DNA of 22,977 bases from a virus. How positions within the stretch are numbered: the stretch's first letter is position 1; every line of letters begins with the position of its first letter. The stretch covers positions 1 through 22,977 of IMG/VR virus record IMGVR_UViG_3300030107_003990; one strand, 5' to 3'. The position numbers and the translations under genes are program-made. Below are positions 11,796-20,569 of this stretch, piece after piece. Below the pieces are notes generated by a model, which was given only the letters and a program-made list of their open reading frames with translations, made no database searches and was not told the origin of the DNA.

Positions 11796-12461
11796 TTGAA
11801 GTATAGAATTTGCGCTTTAAGTGAATTAGTTAATAGTCCATATAATCCCCCACAACGAACGGATAAAGGGATTTCTGCCTTAGTGTCAAATATAAGGAAG
11901 AATGGATTATTGCAACCTATCGTAGTTGCTGATAAAATGACTATTATTGATGGTCATAGAAGAAGATCAGCGCTAGAACGGATAGCGAAAACTGATGGCA
12001 TCAAACCAAGTGAAGTAAAAGTATCAATTGTTCAGCATAATAGTACATCTGAAGAATTATACGATGCTTTATTTATATCATCTAACAAAGATACTATGCT
12101 ATTAAATGGTCATCAATATCTTTGGAGATATATGAAAGGTGCTGAAATACCTAAAACACATCTTAGCAGAATTAAAAAGCTTGAGAAATGGTTAGGTAAA
12201 AAATATGCAACAGGTATGTTTCGCAGAATATTGGACAATGGTCATTCTGCAAATACATATCAAATGTGTATTGGTGTCTATAGAACTTATACTAATAAGA
12301 CAACTAGCTCCCATATGAGAAAAGTAGCTTATTACTTATTAAATGTAGAGAACTGTTTCAGGGTTAAAGCAGCAATTGCTAATTATATCCCTGTTAATAC
12401 ACTTGTTAAATGTGTTAACGATAAAAAACAGATTATTACTGAGTTCTCTATTGGTAATTAA
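11796..12461 (+). CDS. ParB/Srx-domain protein (short)
   Basis: 221 residues from a TTG start with an ideal AAAGGAG six bases before it. The N-terminal 60 residues carry the ParB-like fold: the phosphoribosyl-type segment NIRKNGLLQPIVV (32-44) and IIDGHRRRSAL (50-60), the conserved G-H-R-R box. The remainder is helical and basic (SRIKKLEKWLGKKYATGMF), so DNA binding is likely. ParB-domain proteins act in partition, transcription control or as nucleases; phage versions are poorly defined. A second, larger ParB-domain gene starts at 13997. Structured non-coding DNA begins immediately at its stop. Confidence 0.75.
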   Translation: MKYRICALSELVNSPYNPPQRTDKGISALVSNIRKNGLLQPIVVADKMTIIDGHRRRSALERIAKTDGIKPSEVKVSIVQHNSTSEELYDALFISSNKDTMLLNGHQYLWRYMKGAEIPKTHLSRIKKLEKWLGKKYATGMFRRILDNGHSANTYQMCIGVYRTYTNKTTSSHMRKVAYYLLNVENCFRVKAAIANYIPVNTLVKCVNDKKQIITEFSIGN

Positions 12462-12561
12462 TAGCCTATCATATTTCCTGCGACTAACGCCACCACCGAG
12501 TTTGCAAGTTGCAACAGCGAGGAGTGTTAGCGTATACAGTTAAAATTAAATGATAGGCTAT
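12461..12561 (+). ncRNA. candidate structured RNA 3
   Basis: Closed by a perfect 12-bp inverted repeat: ATAGCCTATCAT (12461-12472) with ATGATAGGCTAT (12550-12561). Internal pairs include CTAAC/GTTAG and TTGCA-AGT-TGCAA. The first arm starts at the stop codon of the ParB-like gene, so it may also shape the 3' end of that message. The interior has no ribosome site or sensible frame. It is followed directly by candidate RNA 4. Confidence 0.6.
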
Positions 12562-12565
12562 ATAT

Positions 12566-12797
12566 TTAACTATGCAGAGGGAGCTGGGTAAACCAGAGTA
12601 GTGGATAATCATATTTATTATCGTAGAAATACACAATGGCAAGATGGGTGGAGATGTACCACTATATCGGCTGATAATAAAATGATTATAAATAAAGTGA
12701 CTGAGTGTCCGAATTGCTGAAGTTTTGGGAAGCACACTTCTTTATTTAGGTTGTGGTGGACTAGGTTGAAAAACACTAGTCGTGTACGCATAGTTAA
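12566..12797 (+). ncRNA. candidate structured RNA 4
   Basis: Closed by a perfect 10-bp inverted repeat: TTAACTATGC (12566-12575) with GCATAGTTAA (12788-12797); five further flanking bases on each side are nearly complementary. Internal pairs include CTGG/CCAG, GATAAT/ATTATC around CATATTT, AAATAAAG/CTTTATTT and GACTAG/CTAGTC. At about 230 nt it is the longest of the set. An intrinsic terminator follows within a few bases, as expected for a separate transcript. A 39-codon GTG frame (12601-12720) ending in C-P-N-C runs through it but lacks a ribosome site. Confidence 0.6.
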
Positions 12798-12801
12798 TAA
12801 T

Positions 12802-12846
12802 AGTGGGGGTTGTTTTAAGAGTTCAGCCCCCACTTATAATTTTTAA
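12802..12846 (+). terminator. intrinsic terminator
   Basis: AGTGGGGG and CCCCCACT pair perfectly around a loop of about 18 bases, and ATAATTTTT follows. This is the clearest intrinsic terminator in the window. It ends the transcript containing candidate RNAs 3 and 4 just before the winged-helix gene, whose ribosome site begins about 10 bases later. Confidence 0.75.
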
Positions 12847-12865
12847 TAACAACAAGGAGTAAATA

Positions 12866-13129
12866 ATGTACTATAACACAACAAGTGAAACTGGTGATAA
12901 CTTAAAAGAATCACATAAAAAAGCAGAATCACAACAACAAAAAGTTCTTGATTATTTTAGAAATAATGGAGAATCAACTCCGTCTAAAGTAGCTTCAAAG
13001 TTAAATTTACTAATTACTTCTGCTAGAAGATGTATTACAGACTTAACTAAAGATGGCTATCTTGAAAAGACAGAAAAAAAAGTAACTGGTATGTATGGTA
13101 AACCAGAATATGTCTGGAAATTATGGTAA
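12866..13129 (+). CDS. winged helix-turn-helix DNA-binding protein
   Basis: 87 residues from an ATG with an AAGGAG site. After a polar N-terminus, residues 24-87 form a winged-helix domain: QQQKVLDYFRNNGESTPSKV (helix 1 and helix 2), LNLLITSARRCITDLTKDGY (recognition helix) and LEKTEKKVTGMYGKPEYVWKLW (wing and last strand). This pattern, P-S-K-V then I-T-S-A-R-R-x-I-x-x-L, is typical of small phage wHTH proteins that control gene order or load replication factors. It could bind the 33-bp repeats about 340 bases downstream, or the TACTGTA motifs; neither is shown. Confidence 0.75.
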   Translation: MYYNTTSETGDNLKESHKKAESQQQKVLDYFRNNGESTPSKVASKLNLLITSARRCITDLTKDGYLEKTEKKVTGMYGKPEYVWKLW

Positions 13130-13148
13130 ATTGTAAATGTTAGCTAAT

Positions 13149-13264
13149 GGGATGGGTTTCTGAGATTAAAACTCAGGGTCTGATGAAACATCGGTTGAAG
13201 GACAAATCAAATAAGTTAAGAGGTAGGTGTGCATCACTTTGTGCTTAACTGCAAAACTCATCCC
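13149..13264 (+). ncRNA. candidate structured RNA 5
   Basis: Closed by an 11-bp stem, GGGATGGGTTT (13149-13159) with AAACTCATCCC (13254-13264), one pair being G-U. Internal hairpins are CTGAG/CTCAG (13160-13176), GATG-AAA-CATC near 13181 and AGTTAAG/CTTAACT (13214-13250). That makes a closing stem with three arms, like a compact multibranch RNA of 116 nt. No plausible reading frame was seen. The G-U compensation in the closing stem suggests selection on RNA pairing, not DNA symmetry. Confidence 0.65.
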
Positions 13265-13279
13265 TTCTATTATTTATAC

Positions 13280-13459
13280 TAAAAAACAAGATAGGCGTGT
13301 ACCCAGAGCGTAAATAGTCAGGCTGGGGGCTGGACCATAAGAACAGTTTCTGAGCTATGTTCTATCTTTAATAAAAGACGAAATCAAAGTCCATAGCGCC
13401 CGTAAGGGAACAGAGTCCTGATTAAGCAAGAACCTGGCTGAAATGTCTTGCTCGTTTTT
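13280..13459 (+). ncRNA. candidate structured RNA 6 with alternative terminator
   Basis: Nested pairs: TAGTCAGG (13315-13322) with CCTGATTA (13417-13424, one G-U), GGGC with GCCC (13398-13401), TGGAC (13331-13335) with GTCCA (13389-13393), and AGAACA with TGTTCT (13340-13363). CCC-GTAA-GGG (13399-13408) has a GNRA-type loop. TCTTG (13446-13450) can pair either with CAAGA at 13287 to close the whole element or with GCAAGA at 13426 to make a terminator. The enclosed part is clearly richer in GC than its flanks. A regulated leader or an independent ornate RNA are both possible. Confidence 0.6.
13425..13459 (+). terminator. intrinsic terminator at end of candidate RNA 6
   Basis: AGCAAGA (13425-13431) pairs with TCTTGCT (13446-13452) around a 14-base loop, followed by CGTTTTT. 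The 3' arm can alternatively pair with the 5' end of candidate RNA 6, which would disrupt the terminator. Confidence 0.6.
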
Positions 13460-13470
13460 ATAAATTTACA

Positions 13471-13558
13471 AAATAGGACATTTTTGACCTATTTATATGT
13501 GCTAAAGAGGACATTTTTGTCCTGTTGACGCATACTATAGGTGACATTTTTGTCATCT
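13471..13558. repeat. three iteron-like hairpins at exact 33-bp spacing
   Basis: GACATTTTTG begins at 13477, 13510 and 13543, a spacing of exactly 33 bp twice. Each copy is the centre of a different dyad: AAATAGG/CCTATTT (13471-13494, one A-A mismatch inside), AGGACA/TGTCCT (13508-13523) and AGGTGACA/TGTCATCT (13539-13558, one G-T). All three have a TTTT loop. The arms differ but complement each other, so symmetry is conserved more than sequence. As DNA this is an operator or iteron array on one helix face; as RNA it is three stacked hairpins. It lies between candidate RNA 6 and the next gene. Confidence 0.75.
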
Positions 13559-13642
13559 TGAAATTTTCATAAGTGTAATAAAACAATGTATTTATGCAAA
13601 TTTACCCTCTCTAATATCTATACATAAAAAAAGGAAAATAAA

Positions 13643-13912
13643 ATGATGACTAAACCAGATTTAATAAAAGTTTTAATTAAAGAATATGATAATCTAATAG
13701 AACATCTATTTAAATATGTTGATAAATATGATTATCACGAGGATTGTCAGTTGCATATGAAACAAGGAAGAGTAACCGCTTTTAAAGAATGTATAATTGG
13801 TAATTCAGAAGAAAATATTGTACATATTAAAGCCACTGATGCAGAAATATCAAAAATATTAAATGATGAAAAAAACAAAAAACAAAACCAAAAAAAAGCT
13901 TCTAACAGGTAA
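13643..13912 (+). CDS. hypothetical protein
   Basis: 89 residues starting at ATG ATG with AAAAGGAAAATAAA upstream. Mostly helical, with DLIKVLIKEYDNLIEHLFKY near the start, a H-E-D-C-Q-L-H segment and a basic, lysine- and asparagine-rich end (KNKKQNQKKASNR). The C-terminal coding part overlaps the next small gene by about 50 bases in another frame. No family recognised. It is the first gene after the 33-bp repeats and likely starts the replication operon. Confidence 0.65.
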   Translation: MMTKPDLIKVLIKEYDNLIEHLFKYVDKYDYHEDCQLHMKQGRVTAFKECIIGNSEENIVHIKATDAEISKILNDEKNKKQNQKKASNR

Positions 13913-14000
13913 AGCGTTAGAAAGAAAAATAGAAGAAGATGCAGAACTTGCATACATACAACAAAAAATAGACCTACATATAGAAGGAACTTATAAATGA
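13863..14000 (+). CDS. small basic protein overlapping two genes
   Basis: 44-45 residues from ATG ATG at 13863/13866. The N-terminus is very basic (MKKTKNKTKKKLLTGKAL), the C-terminal half helical and acidic (ERKIEEDAELAYIQQKIDLH). The stop overlaps the following ParB-type start as ATGA, which supports real, coupled translation. The first 50 bases lie inside the previous gene in another frame, and there is no ribosome site in front. No family recognised; nucleic-acid binding is suggested only by charge. Confidence 0.5.
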   Translation: MMKKTKNKTKKKLLTGKALERKIEEDAELAYIQQKIDLHIEGTYK

Positions 14001-15646
14001 ATACAATATCAGTAAATAAATTGATCTCTGAAGGTAATGTCAGAGCAGAAAAAACAAATAAGAAAACACTTGAATATAAGGCTTTAAAGTCTAATATTGC
14101 AAAAGTTGGAATGTTAACCCCTATCACATATCGTAAAAATGATGATGGTGAATATGTTATTATTAATGGTCATCAAAGAGTCGAAATTGCCAAGGATTTA
14201 AAGCTAGAAGAAATACCAGCTTATGAATCTAATGGTCAAATTGATGATGTTACAAAGCAAGTATCTACCAATATGTTCACAGTACCTATGACATTTGTAG
14301 ATGCTAGTTATGCTATAGATCAATTAGTAAAACAAGGCGCTATAACTACACGCAAAGCTTTATCTTCTCATTTTGGGAAAAGCGTAGCTTGGGTAGATAC
14401 TGCTTTAGCTATTTGCAATGTACATCCATTTATTCGTTATGTAATAAAAGATGAATATAGTAATGATTGGAGTGACCACTTAATAAGTATTTCTAAATCT
14501 CCTATCAAAAAACAAGAAGTTGCTATAAAATCATTATTAAGTCTTGAGACTGGTGATTGGAGCAAAGAAAGCGTTAAATCTGAAATATCAGATTATAGCT
14601 ATCAAGATGATAATGTAGAAGACTTTCTTTATGATTTAGAAAGAGAATTGCAAACAGATGAAAATAAATGGAAATATATATGTGATGTTGTAGGTGAAAA
14701 GACATTCAGAGCTTGTGAAGAAAAGGCTGATATGACTCCTGTATATGAAAATGTTCTATTTCAAGAGTTTGCTAAAGAACAGTTTTGCGATGATGAAGAG
14801 TTTCTGCAAGAAGTATTTCTAAATGAAACTGCAATTGGTCAATACTTAAATGATTGCCCCACTGAAAGCACAAATGGATATGAGCAAAGCGTTTCTTTTG
14901 ATTTTGCAAATAAAGTAAGTACGCTTAAATCTAATATAAAGAAACAAACAGGCGCTCCTTATAGCAATGTTATTATAAGAGCGTGGAATGGTGATGTCTT
15001 TAATTCTAAATTATTTGTAGATGTAGTTAAAAATGCAGTTACTGAAGATGTTAAAGATGATTCTCATTATGAAGAAAAAGCAATGGAAGATAAAGACCCT
15101 AATCAATTAAAGTACAACAAACTCAATAAGTGGGTAAAGCCATATATTGTTGAATATGTTGAGGCTAATGTTGACACTAATACAAGAGACAAAAAAGATA
15201 ATCGTATTGTTCTTGGTTGGTTGATTCATGACTTAGGAATTTGTTTAGAATTAAATAAACCTTTCCACACTGAAACATTTGCAAGTCATCCAACAGTTAC
15301 ATCTAAAACAGATGAAGAACTATTTAATGGCATGACAAAAGAATGGTTCAATCAACATTGGCAATATGCTGATTTTGCTCAAATTGATACGCTATTAAAG
15401 CTATTAAAATTGGATAGTTGTCTTACTACTGCTACAAAAGCATTTAGCGGTAATGAAGATGCAAGAAAAGAGTTCTTTAAAGCATTTTCAAAAGATGAAT
15501 TATCTGTTTTATGTGCAAATAATATGCTTAAAACAAAAGCAGAAGCAGTTGATAAAGCAGCTTCAATTGATTGGAAAGAAATTCCTCATAGTGAATTAAT
15601 GTTCACAAATAAAGGAAGTGGTTCTGACTCAATAAGGCAATATTAA
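13997..15646 (+). CDS. large ParB-domain protein
   Basis: 549 residues. Residues 1-75 match the ParB N-terminal layout: VNKLISEGNVR, NIAKVGMLTPITYRKNDDGE (33-52) and VIINGHQRVEIAK (54-66), containing the G-H-Q-R version of the conserved box. A helical region around 105-145 (IDQLVKQGAITTRKALSSHF) resembles the ParB HTH. The remaining 350 residues are acidic, helical and unassigned. Plasmid and phage proteins of this type are usually called partitioning nucleases, but there is no ParA partner in this window, so a regulatory or nuclease role is as likely. The ATG has AAGGAA eight bases upstream and overlaps the previous stop. Confidence 0.75.
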   Translation: MNTISVNKLISEGNVRAEKTNKKTLEYKALKSNIAKVGMLTPITYRKNDDGEYVIINGHQRVEIAKDLKLEEIPAYESNGQIDDVTKQVSTNMFTVPMTFVDASYAIDQLVKQGAITTRKALSSHFGKSVAWVDTALAICNVHPFIRYVIKDEYSNDWSDHLISISKSPIKKQEVAIKSLLSLETGDWSKESVKSEISDYSYQDDNVEDFLYDLERELQTDENKWKYICDVVGEKTFRACEEKADMTPVYENVLFQEFAKEQFCDDEEFLQEVFLNETAIGQYLNDCPTESTNGYEQSVSFDFANKVSTLKSNIKKQTGAPYSNVIIRAWNGDVFNSKLFVDVVKNAVTEDVKDDSHYEEKAMEDKDPNQLKYNKLNKWVKPYIVEYVEANVDTNTRDKKDNRIVLGWLIHDLGICLELNKPFHTETFASHPTVTSKTDEELFNGMTKEWFNQHWQYADFAQIDTLLKLLKLDSCLTTATKAFSGNEDARKEFFKAFSKDELSVLCANNMLKTKAEAVDKAASIDWKEIPHSELMFTNKGSGSDSIRQY

Positions 15647-15657
15647 ATTGTAAAGGT

Positions 15658-15709
15658 GCATATGGCTCTGTGTAAAATTTCCCTAATTGGGTTACAGAGC
15701 CATTTATGC
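15658..15709 (+). terminator. 14-bp hairpin after the large ParB-domain gene
   Basis: GCAT (15658-15661) followed by ATGGCTCTGT (15662-15671) pairs with ACAGAGCCAT (15694-15703) and, after a two-base bulge, ATGC (15706-15709). GTTTATTTATAT follows, so termination is plausible. The 22-base loop resembles other elements of this genome in which long arms surround a large loop. Confidence 0.6.
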
Positions 15710-15767
15710 GTTTATTTATATTGCATAGTAATATAGTATTAACTAATATAAGAAAGGAATTATAATA

Positions 15768-17190: not shown

Positions 17191-17400
17191 ATGAGTGATT
17201 TTACATATTATCAAACACAATATATATCTGATTTAGCAATATGTGTTAATTGTTCAAGAATCTGTGAAGATGGATACAAAGAATTGAATGGAGAAACATT
17301 TTGCTATTATGAGATAGAAAATAAAAAAGGCACATCAAGTGAAGAATTTGGATGTTATCCAGATGAATACGAAGACTTAAACAAAAAGGAAAATAAATGA
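17191..17400 (+). CDS. small cysteine-rich protein
   Basis: 69 residues from the ATG at 17191, preceded by AAGGGGGAG inside a hairpin arm. Cysteines at 18, 21, 25, 38 and about 55 (C-V-N-C-S-R-I-C) suggest a zinc-binding knuckle. The C-terminal third is acidic (EEFGCYPDEYEDLNKKENK). Its stop overlaps the ERF gene start by ATGA, so the two are probably translated together. No family recognised. Confidence 0.65.
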   Translation: MSDFTYYQTQYISDLAICVNCSRICEDGYKELNGETFCYYEIENKKGTSSEEFGCYPDEYEDLNKKENK

Positions 17401-18158
17401 AACAACCAGAAGAACTGGATTTTAAAAACATTGATGAAAAATTAATGTTTATACAAACTACTTTAAAAGTAGAAAAAGGAAATGTAAATAATTTTGCAAA
17501 GTTTAACTATAGAACACTTAGCGATATTTATTCAAAAGTTAAACCATTGCTCGAACAAACAAACTGTAGTTTAAGAATTACAGATGATCTTATTGAGGCT
17601 AATGGCAATAATTATATCAAAGCTACTGCAACTTTATCTGATGGTGAAGATAGCGTTGAAAGCGTAGGAATTGCCAGGGAATCACTTAATAAAAAAGGTA
17701 TGGATGACCCACAAATGACAGGTACTGCCTCCACATATGCTCGTAAATATGCTTGTAATGGTTTACTCGCTATTGATGATACTCCAGACCCCGATAGCAT
17801 GGATAATCGTGAAGAACTCCATCATAATGGTAAGCCTGTAAAAGAAAACTGTGTTACACAAGACCAATCTATTAAAATGGATAGACTTGCTAGAGATGTA
17901 AAAACACTACCTTTTGATAAATCAAGATTAAAGAAAGTTGCTCAAGATGGATATATAATAAGTGCATTGGAAGCTCAAACTTTAATTGAGGATGCTAAAG
18001 CAGGTCAGATAAAACAAGTTGGAAAAAAAGTAATAGCTGATTTAACAAAGCGATTAGCTGAAGCTGATAAACAAACTACAATTGATTATTTAGATGCAAA
18101 TGGCTGGACATCAGAACTTGTTAAAAAAGCAGAAGAAAAACTAAAGGAGAATAAATAA
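17397..18158 (+). CDS. ERF-family single-strand annealing protein
   Basis: 253 residues. ERF proteins anneal complementary ssDNA in phage recombination and genome circularisation. Matching segments: KFNYRTLSDIYSKVKPLLEQ (35-54), NNYIKATATL (71-80) and QMTGTASTYARKYACNGLLA (106-125) followed by DDTPDPDS, the characteristic A-x-x-Y-A-R-K-Y box and acidic D-x-D end. The C-terminal 100 residues are helical and charged, as is common. The ribosome site is AAAAAGGAA. The next gene, an SSB, shares one base with its stop (TAATG), which supports a recombination module. Confidence 0.88.
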   Translation: MKQPEELDFKNIDEKLMFIQTTLKVEKGNVNNFAKFNYRTLSDIYSKVKPLLEQTNCSLRITDDLIEANGNNYIKATATLSDGEDSVESVGIARESLNKKGMDDPQMTGTASTYARKYACNGLLAIDDTPDPDSMDNREELHHNGKPVKENCVTQDQSIKMDRLARDVKTLPFDKSRLKKVAQDGYIISALEAQTLIEDAKAGQIKQVGKKVIADLTKRLAEADKQTTIDYLDANGWTSELVKKAEEKLKENK

Positions 18159-18787: not shown

Positions 18788-20569
18788 TTGGACATTAAAA
18801 AACAATATGTAGAAGTAGCCTCTCCTTCTGTTAGTAATCGTGGTAAAGTCATGCGGTTAGACCAATTGCATGACTTTATTGGGAAAATAGAAGATAAAAG
18901 CGAAGTTTATTATAGTTGGTATTGTTTTGATGCAAATCTTAAATCTCATATAGAAAAAACAAGAACAATACAAAACTTTAGTGGATTAGCTAATATTAAT
19001 CAAATAATCTTAGACTTTGATAAAGGTAGTTTAGAAGATAAAGAACTGCTTGATTTAATGCGTTATTTTATAACAGAAGAATTGGTTAATAATTATTCTA
19101 TTCCAGATGATTACTATACTATATGGTATAGTGGTACAGGATTTCATGTGCATTTAGCAGATGTATTTGGATTTGAATCAGGAGTTGATCTTCCCACTAC
19201 TGTTAAAACAACAATTGCAGAAATATTTCCTCATGCTGATAATATCTTTGATAAACCAAGATTGATTCGTGCAGGTGGAACTATTAATAAAAAATCAGGA
19301 TTCTATAAAACAAAAATAGATAGAGAAGACTTATTTACTTGGGACATGAATGATATAAAAGAAGTTTGTTCTGTTCCCTATAAAGAATATGGACTTTGGT
19401 TTGATGAAGATATTAAAATAGATAGAATGCTTTCTCATTTAATTAAAAAACCAACAAGAGCATCTCTTCCTGTAACTGCAAAACTACATAAGATAAAAGG
19501 CGACCCTAACTCAATTGTTACTTGTATGCAAAAAGCATATCACGCTGGCCCAATTCAGGGACAGAGAAATGAAACTATGATGCGCATTGCTTCTTGGCTT
19601 AGAAGAAATGGAACTCCACAAGAGATTGTAGAAGTTGCATTAAAATCGTATTCTAACTTAAATAAAGAATCCGAATCTTGCACAAAACAAGTATTTAAAG
19701 AAGGTTATCAATATGGATGTGATGACCCAATCATGGCGCAATGGTGCAGTACAAAATGCATTTATTATAAGCGCAAAGATTATTCTTTAAATATCAAGAA
19801 TGCACAACAAATGGAATCTTCTTATCAAGATTATATAAAACAAGACTTTACAGATAAATCATTTGATTTTGGCGACATATGGAAACTTCCTAGACAGGGA
19901 CAGAAATATACTGTATATCCTGGAGAATTAGTGATTATCTTAGGTGACACAGGATTAGGTAAAACTGCATTTGTACAGAACCTAGTTGCAAATTTACCAA
20001 ATCTCACTTGTCTTTATTTAAGTCTTGAGCTTCATCATCATTTAATGTTTAGACGCTTTTGCCAAATAACTCATAGCTTACCTAAAGAAAAAGTTATTGC
20101 AGAAGCAATTAATAAAGATGAAAAGTCAAATCTTGGTAGAGAATTTAAACAAATATCTGTACTTAGTGATCCAATTGAGTTAAGCAGACTTGAAAAGCAA
20201 ATCGCAGAAATAAAACCAAAAGTACTTGTGGTTGATACTACTGAAGACATCAACGTAGACAATGTATATAATGAATTTGAAAGAATGAATAAGATTATCA
20301 ATACACTTAAAACAATTGCTATTACTCAAGACCTAATAGTAATAGGTGTGCATCATATGAATAAAGATGGTGCAAAGACTCAGACAACTGAATTAACATC
20401 TGCAAAAGGAAGTATGAATGTTGTTCAGAAAGCTGATAAAGTATTAGCTATTACTGGTGATAGAGATAAACCTACTCGCTTTCTAATAAGTAAGAAATCT
20501 AGAGACGAAAATAAAATGAAATTACAATTCGAGTTTCAACCAAAAACATTTAGATGGGAACAAGTTTGA
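18788..20569 (+). CDS. primase-helicase fusion (AEP-like primase plus DnaB-like ATPase)
   Basis: 593 residues from a TTG start (AGGA eight bases before). The N-terminal half resembles archaeo-eukaryotic primases: IILDFDKGS (73-81, D76 and D78 as metal ligands), SGTGFHVHL (115-123) and KPRLIRAGG (156-164). A cysteine cluster C298, C311, C320, C324 in the middle could hold zinc or an iron-sulfur cluster. The C-terminal half is a RecA/DnaB-type ATPase: Walker A GDTGLGKTA (386-394), Walker B VLVVDTTED (479-487), VIGVHHMNKDG (518-528) and a late S-K-K-S-R-D. One protein would thus prime and unwind at the phage fork. No DNA polymerase gene is seen in the window. Confidence 0.85.
   Translation: MDIKKQYVEVASPSVSNRGKVMRLDQLHDFIGKIEDKSEVYYSWYCFDANLKSHIEKTRTIQNFSGLANINQIILDFDKGSLEDKELLDLMRYFITEELVNNYSIPDDYYTIWYSGTGFHVHLADVFGFESGVDLPTTVKTTIAEIFPHADNIFDKPRLIRAGGTINKKSGFYKTKIDREDLFTWDMNDIKEVCSVPYKEYGLWFDEDIKIDRMLSHLIKKPTRASLPVTAKLHKIKGDPNSIVTCMQKAYHAGPIQGQRNETMMRIASWLRRNGTPQEIVEVALKSYSNLNKESESCTKQVFKEGYQYGCDDPIMAQWCSTKCIYYKRKDYSLNIKNAQQMESSYQDYIKQDFTDKSFDFGDIWKLPRQGQKYTVYPGELVIILGDTGLGKTAFVQNLVANLPNLTCLYLSLELHHHLMFRRFCQITHSLPKEKVIAEAINKDEKSNLGREFKQISVLSDPIELSRLEKQIAEIKPKVLVVDTTEDINVDNVYNEFERMNKIINTLKTIAITQDLIVIGVHHMNKDGAKTQTTELTSAKGSMNVVQKADKVLAITGDRDKPTRFLISKKSRDENKMKLQFEFQPKTFRWEQV

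Follow-up and report, generated by a model that had tools for sequence, protein, structure and literature searches.

A phased array of three semi-palindromes before the replication operon of a phage: candidate iteron-type protein-binding sites

In lambda-type origins the iterons lie inside the O gene, as repeated symmetric sites within the early replication module. The iterons of RepA_N replicons are semi-palindromic direct repeats with inverted parts converging on a poly-A tract; those of PLE are situated in noncoding DNA, where they are bound by RepA and needed for replication (PMC7145576). In plasmid pSK41 the Rep boxes are located within the rep gene, and the HTH_36 (pfam13730) DNA-binding part of plasmid pPR9 is derived from a phage-like replication protein (PMC5703833).

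Here, an array of three semi-palindromes from a viral record of IMG/VR is described; the term "window" denotes the whole stretch of DNA which was analysed (22,977 bp). The array is probably a set of cis-acting, iteron-type protein-binding sites on double-stranded DNA, serving replication initiation and/or early control; we assign to this reading a probability of about 0.52.

The array and its surroundings

All three semi-palindromes (Table 1) have GACA-TTTT-TG in common, and their arms differ yet stay complementary. The core GACATTTTTG starts at 13477, 13510 and 13543, i.e., at intervals of 33 and 33 bp, and no further exact copy was found within the window. When the 22,977 bp were scanned for hairpins with a 4-nt A/T loop and at least 7 of 8 arm positions paired, only the three sites were obtained; dinucleotide shuffles of the window (n = 300) contained 0.56 such hairpins on average and an equally spaced triplet in 0 of 300 cases. 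Folding of 13471-13558 was compared with that of shuffled sequences and gave z = -6.1, with 0 of 200 shuffles as good. Coordinates, arms and shuffles thus confirmed the original prediction of TTTT-core hairpins at exact 33-bp spacing with arms varying together. As is expected of an iteron origin, the array consists of tandem direct repeats, each of them semi-palindromic around a poly-A/T tract.

The array is intergenic and lies inside a mostly noncoding zone of about 1.2 kb right before the ParB gene. Genes for packaging and structure (terminase, portal, head protein) are situated to its left, and to its right follows a replication operon for a ParB-domain protein, an ERF annealing protein, a primase-like/DnaB-like helicase and a RusA-like resolvase. 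Two longer relatives, designated G003 (47,144 bp) and G001 (46,076 bp), are temperate phages with a tyrosine integrase and a CI-like repressor. A promoter-like element was read by eye at the right end of the array (Table 1), and its counterpart in the related contig L023 is TTGTCA-18-TATAAT (also by eye). A consensus promoter scan listed no strong promoter at the array; the element in the window is missing there because the scan demands A at position 2 of the -10 hexamer. DNA searches with the array region against phage and plasmid records gave no match. GC skew was uninformative as a cue for an origin, its sign changing at about 10 kb, where transcription diverges, and not at the array.

Table 1. 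Coordinates of the array and of neighbouring features in the window.
Feature	Positions	Strand	Remarks
Site 1	13471-13494	+	AAATAGGaCA TTTT TGaCCTATTT; semi-palindrome interrupted by a single A-A mismatch
Site 2	13508-13523	+	AGGACA TTTT TGTCCT; perfect semi-palindrome
Site 3	13539-13558	+	AGGTGACA TTTT TGTCATCT; stem with one G-T
Promoter-like element	13550-13579	+	TTGTCA-18-TGTAAT, read by eye; -35 is the right half of site 3
AT-rich flank	13559-13640		82 bp; 21% G+C (window, 34%); holds the inverted repeat CATAAGT...ATTTATG
Small ORF	13643-13912	+	immediately 3' of the array; no family match
ParB-domain protein	13997-15646	+	549 aa; first large gene of the replication operon
ERF single-strand annealing protein	17397-18158	+	replication/recombination operon
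Primase-like/DnaB-like helicase	18788-20569	+	same operon as the ParB and ERF genes

The DNA further upstream (12460-13450 in the window; also L004, L018, L023, L070 and L205) is a mosaic of short, very conserved noncoding modules. In the window these are located at about 12460-12565, 12561-12802, 13150-13257 and 13287-13447, each closed by its own long-range stem; among related phages they are shuffled, gained and lost, and no Rfam match was found for them. Possibly they are a series of structured RNAs; the covariation is sparse. At 12800-12866, right upstream of a gene for a winged-helix protein of 87 amino acids, there is a hairpin, AGTGGGGGTT...AGCCCCCACT, where the mosaic of L004 differs.

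The same core in other viruses and genomes

Two copies of GACATTTTTGNC at a distance of 30-38 bp were present in 54 viral stretches, nearly all of them with the palindromic T. Tandem GACATTTTTGTC was found in 54 viral and 116 genome stretches, the latter from Clostridia, Bacilli, Bacteroidota, Treponema, Altiarchaeales and others, and a control pattern of equal composition and structure, CAGATTTTTCTG, in 0 viral contigs. Pattern scans pick exact copies of the core, and its invariance within these sets is therefore by design. The tests of reading frame, arms, spacing and AT-rich flank which are given below are independent of this selection, though spacing is bounded by the gap allowed in the scan.

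Of the 135 stretches compared, 67 contained a member of one protein family, and nearly always the array was situated within the gene of this protein, usually at about codons 100-150, just after the winged helix, and with GACAAAAATGTC on the coding strand. Representatives of the family matched Pfam HTH_36; in named phages, their relatives carry annotations as replication, DnaD-like or XkdB proteins. A sequence search of the PDB with the initiator profile yielded MarR-like matches only. Several noncoding arrays (L022, L040, L063 and L075) adjoin HTH_36 genes. Following the array, about 60 bp of AT-rich DNA were found in 75 initiator genes (dGC -0.13), and the arrays inside these genes thus have a layout like that of RepA_N-type iterons (pSK41, PLE); the stronger AT-rich flank of the window, with its 82 bp, is on the opposite side. 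When HTH_36 loci were chosen by family alone, the motif occurred in 2 of 65, both from genomes already known to carry it. Thus, it is one of several iteron types and not universal for HTH_36.

Among named phages, Geobacillus phage phiOH2 contains the three sites GTGCCAAAAATGGCAC, AGGACAAAAATGGCCT and GTGCCAAAAATGGCAC, each 33 bp from the next, and Leuconostoc phage LLC-1 contains four, which are 22-24 bp apart. The phiOH2 sites are located inside the XkdB-like gene (L273:407-1327), and their arms differ from those of the window. Predicted origins in HTH_36 genes are found among L017-L187, in many phyla (e.g., L112:2257-3342, L101:6405-6815 and L143:5785-6876). In metagenome-assembled genomes of gut Clostridia, tandem GACAAAAATGTC repeats, frequently at a distance of 33 bp, are dispersed within ordinary genes as well as in the gaps between them (L088, with polA; L100, L103, L122, L125, L141, L145, L160, L165 and L173). 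A different use of the core is apparent in L046:9452-9540, where an XRE repressor gene is accompanied by three noncoding GACATTTTTGTC sites, at intervals of 33 and 41 bp, which lead into a promoter-like TATAAT with the last site at the -35 position; here the core apparently serves as a transcription operator. Ends of IS21-type transposons, which we took to be another candidate for the arrays, were rejected, as the neighbours which the arrays have in common are HTH_36 and other replication proteins rather than transposases.

In one and the same initiator gene, copies of the repeat fall into all three frames and are translated as DKNV, QKC and TKMS. Therefore it is the nucleic acid which is conserved, and selection for a peptide, as the DKNV repeats could suggest, was rejected. 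For 355 distinct sites in other genomes, complementarity of the arms was compared with that of permuted pairings and gave z = 15.7, 13.2, 5.6 and 8.8 at offsets 1-4, respectively; selection on symmetry, as originally proposed for the three sites, is thereby supported for the class as a whole. The spacings form three clusters, 20-24, 29-36 and 40-48 bp, which are separated by gaps, and show a periodicity of R = 0.56 at 10.5-11 bp (null maximum about 0.34-0.40). These clusters fit the DNA helix. In the arms of the wider class, G-T and A-C mismatches were equally frequent relative to permutation; since G-T is not preferred, there is no sign in the class of an RNA strand being read.

Related phages, the search for an initiator, and readings of the array

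Exact copies of the array are present in G002 (L018) and in G003 (L070). In L023 there are two sites, one 33-bp unit fewer, and the phase is retained. In four phage contigs the array and its AT-rich flank are kept as one unit amid neighbouring genes that differ. The whole array is absent from G001, most genes of which are 90-98% identical to those of G003, and L205 has none beside its copy of module C. As to the 33-bp phasing in relatives, which was proposed at the outset as a check, the two sites of L023 keep it, and G001 lacks the entire array. Due to its absence from such a close relative the array is not an obligatory origin of the lineage, and its presence in some relatives but not in G001 and L205 indicates a module which is gained or lost.

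A cognate initiator was searched for in the window record, G001 and G003 with HTH_36, RepA_N and a profile designated A2, which lacked a positive control there, and no match was obtained. Weak HTH_36 matches in G001 and G003 were traced to HTH repressors of the CI-like type. Since the window record is a fragment, a missing initiator is weak evidence there; G003 and G001, whose completeness is uncertified, strengthen it. A degraded initiator gene on the minus strand of the window was considered and is unsupported, as that strand contains short open frames only. The iteron reading, one of the candidates named at the outset, thus receives comparative support from the tandem core, the changing palindromic arms and the helical phasing, all of which match phage initiator genes, while the cognate initiator was not found in these three records.

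On the iteron reading, a dimeric winged-helix protein of the initiator type would bind each semi-palindrome and would contact GACA and TGTC on both sides of a bent A/T tract. Given a distance of about three turns between sites, the bound proteins would all be on the same face of the helix. The occupied array would then most likely act as the phage replication origin, or part of it, and/or turn on the replication operon just downstream.

A considerably less probable reading, yet the main rival, is that of an operator for the early operon, with three sites for a repressor or activator; site 3 would cover the -35 hexamer, and the 33-bp phasing would permit cooperative binding. It is favoured by the overlap, as read by eye, of TTGTCA-18-TGTAAT with site 3 and its counterpart in L023, by the noncoding sites beside the XRE gene in L046, the last of them likewise at -35, and by the temperate nature of these phages, which possess an integrase and a CI-like repressor. 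Against it, no strong promoter was listed at the array by the consensus scan, and the presence of a CI-like repressor does not track the array in this phage group: in G001 the protein is encoded but the array is absent, and in the window the array is present but the corresponding position holds no CI-like gene. Moreover, the DNA upstream of the CI-like gene in G003 contains another repeated motif, ATGTACAATAA, and no GACA-N4-TGTC, for which reason a CI operator in particular was rejected.

The three copies of ATGTACAATAA in G003 (L196:3026-3130) occupy the gap which separates the CI-like repressor gene from its neighbour, and are likely the real CI operators of the phage group. At 15647-15767 of the window the CI-like gene of G001, G003 and L205 is missing, with an inverted repeat, GGCTCTGTG...TACAGAGCC, in its place; in the phage of the window, the repressor gene may thus have been lost or relocated.

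Somewhat less probable again, and in our view rather unlikely, is a role of the array as an exchangeable module for origin or control that stands alone. Temperate phages would carry these iterons in cis but no initiator gene, and would depend on, compete for or decoy an initiator of the host or of a co-resident plasmid, prophage or satellite; related phages would gain or lose the module as a unit.

It appears quite improbable that the stretch is transcribed and functions as a three-hairpin RNA, as a further module of the structured noncoding mosaic which precedes it. The strong folding of the array as RNA and its position 20-30 nt downstream of the conserved, probably structured modules C or D would agree with such a role; the spacings in the class follow the DNA helix, however, there is no preference for G-T wobbles over A-C mismatches, a family of DNA-binding initiators accompanies the array, and no Rfam match was found for the array stretch. 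A tolerance of wobbles on one strand only was not observed in the class. The three-hairpin RNA of the original prediction is therefore possible but disfavoured for the class; for the copy in the window, situated as it is among structured noncoding modules, such a role keeps some probability.

Sites for proteins encoded nearby, i.e., a centromere-like parS or operator of the 549-aa ParB or an operator of the 87-aa winged-helix protein (operators for both were also among the first candidates), are very unlikely: both genes are close to the array, ParB-family proteins bind palindromes and the ParB of G003 has a weak ParB-HTH match, but the presence of neither gene tracks the array, which is absent from G001 in spite of a ParB 96% identical to that of the window, is present in G003 with one of 69% identity, is lacking in eight relatives with the winged-helix gene (L005-L012), and occurs without that gene in G003 and L023.

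If the array consists of iteron-type binding sites, as is preferred here, a seemingly local curiosity would be linked to a widespread hidden element which is found across all three reading frames. Origins should become predictable from sequence by means of the semi-palindromic GACAAAAATGTC iteron with changing arms, in many phyla and in initiator genes of phages and prophages. In the phages related to the window the element stands alone and varies between close relatives, and the question whose initiator is recruited is thus directly testable.

Comparison with known systems

In a full-text search of the open-licence literature no paper was found which mentions the 12-mer in a replication or phage context. 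Operator triplets of phage CI/Cro are similar to the array in that three palindromes are located near an early promoter, a putative one in the window; they differ insofar as the CI-like gene of the relatives has its own repeated motif upstream. With lambda-type origins the array shares the repetition of symmetric sites and their location in an early replication module, whereas the sequence is unrelated and the array of the window is noncoding.

The iterons of RepA_N replicons, such as the Rep boxes of the staphylococcal plasmids pSK41 and pTZ2162 and the origin of the V. cholerae PLE, are likewise semi-palindromic direct repeats on an A/T tract, in several copies at roughly 30 bp, and those of PLE are three in number and noncoding (PMC7145576, PMC8263062); this likeness is one of described layout, and no RepA_N protein was detected in the phage group of the window. 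The array cannot be assigned to the RepA_N/HTH_36 replicons, because no such initiator was found in the window, G001 or G003 and because its AT-rich flank and that of the initiator genes are on opposite sides.

The arrays of HTH_36 genes (LLC-1, phiOH2 and L017-L187) are inside or beside the initiator gene and are followed by the AT-rich stretch, whereas the array of the window is intergenic, has no adjacent initiator and carries this stretch on the opposite side. Like the window, they possess GACAAAAATGTC or a near variant, changing palindromic arms and a phased spacing of 21-55 bp, which in phiOH2 is exactly 33 bp, as it is here.
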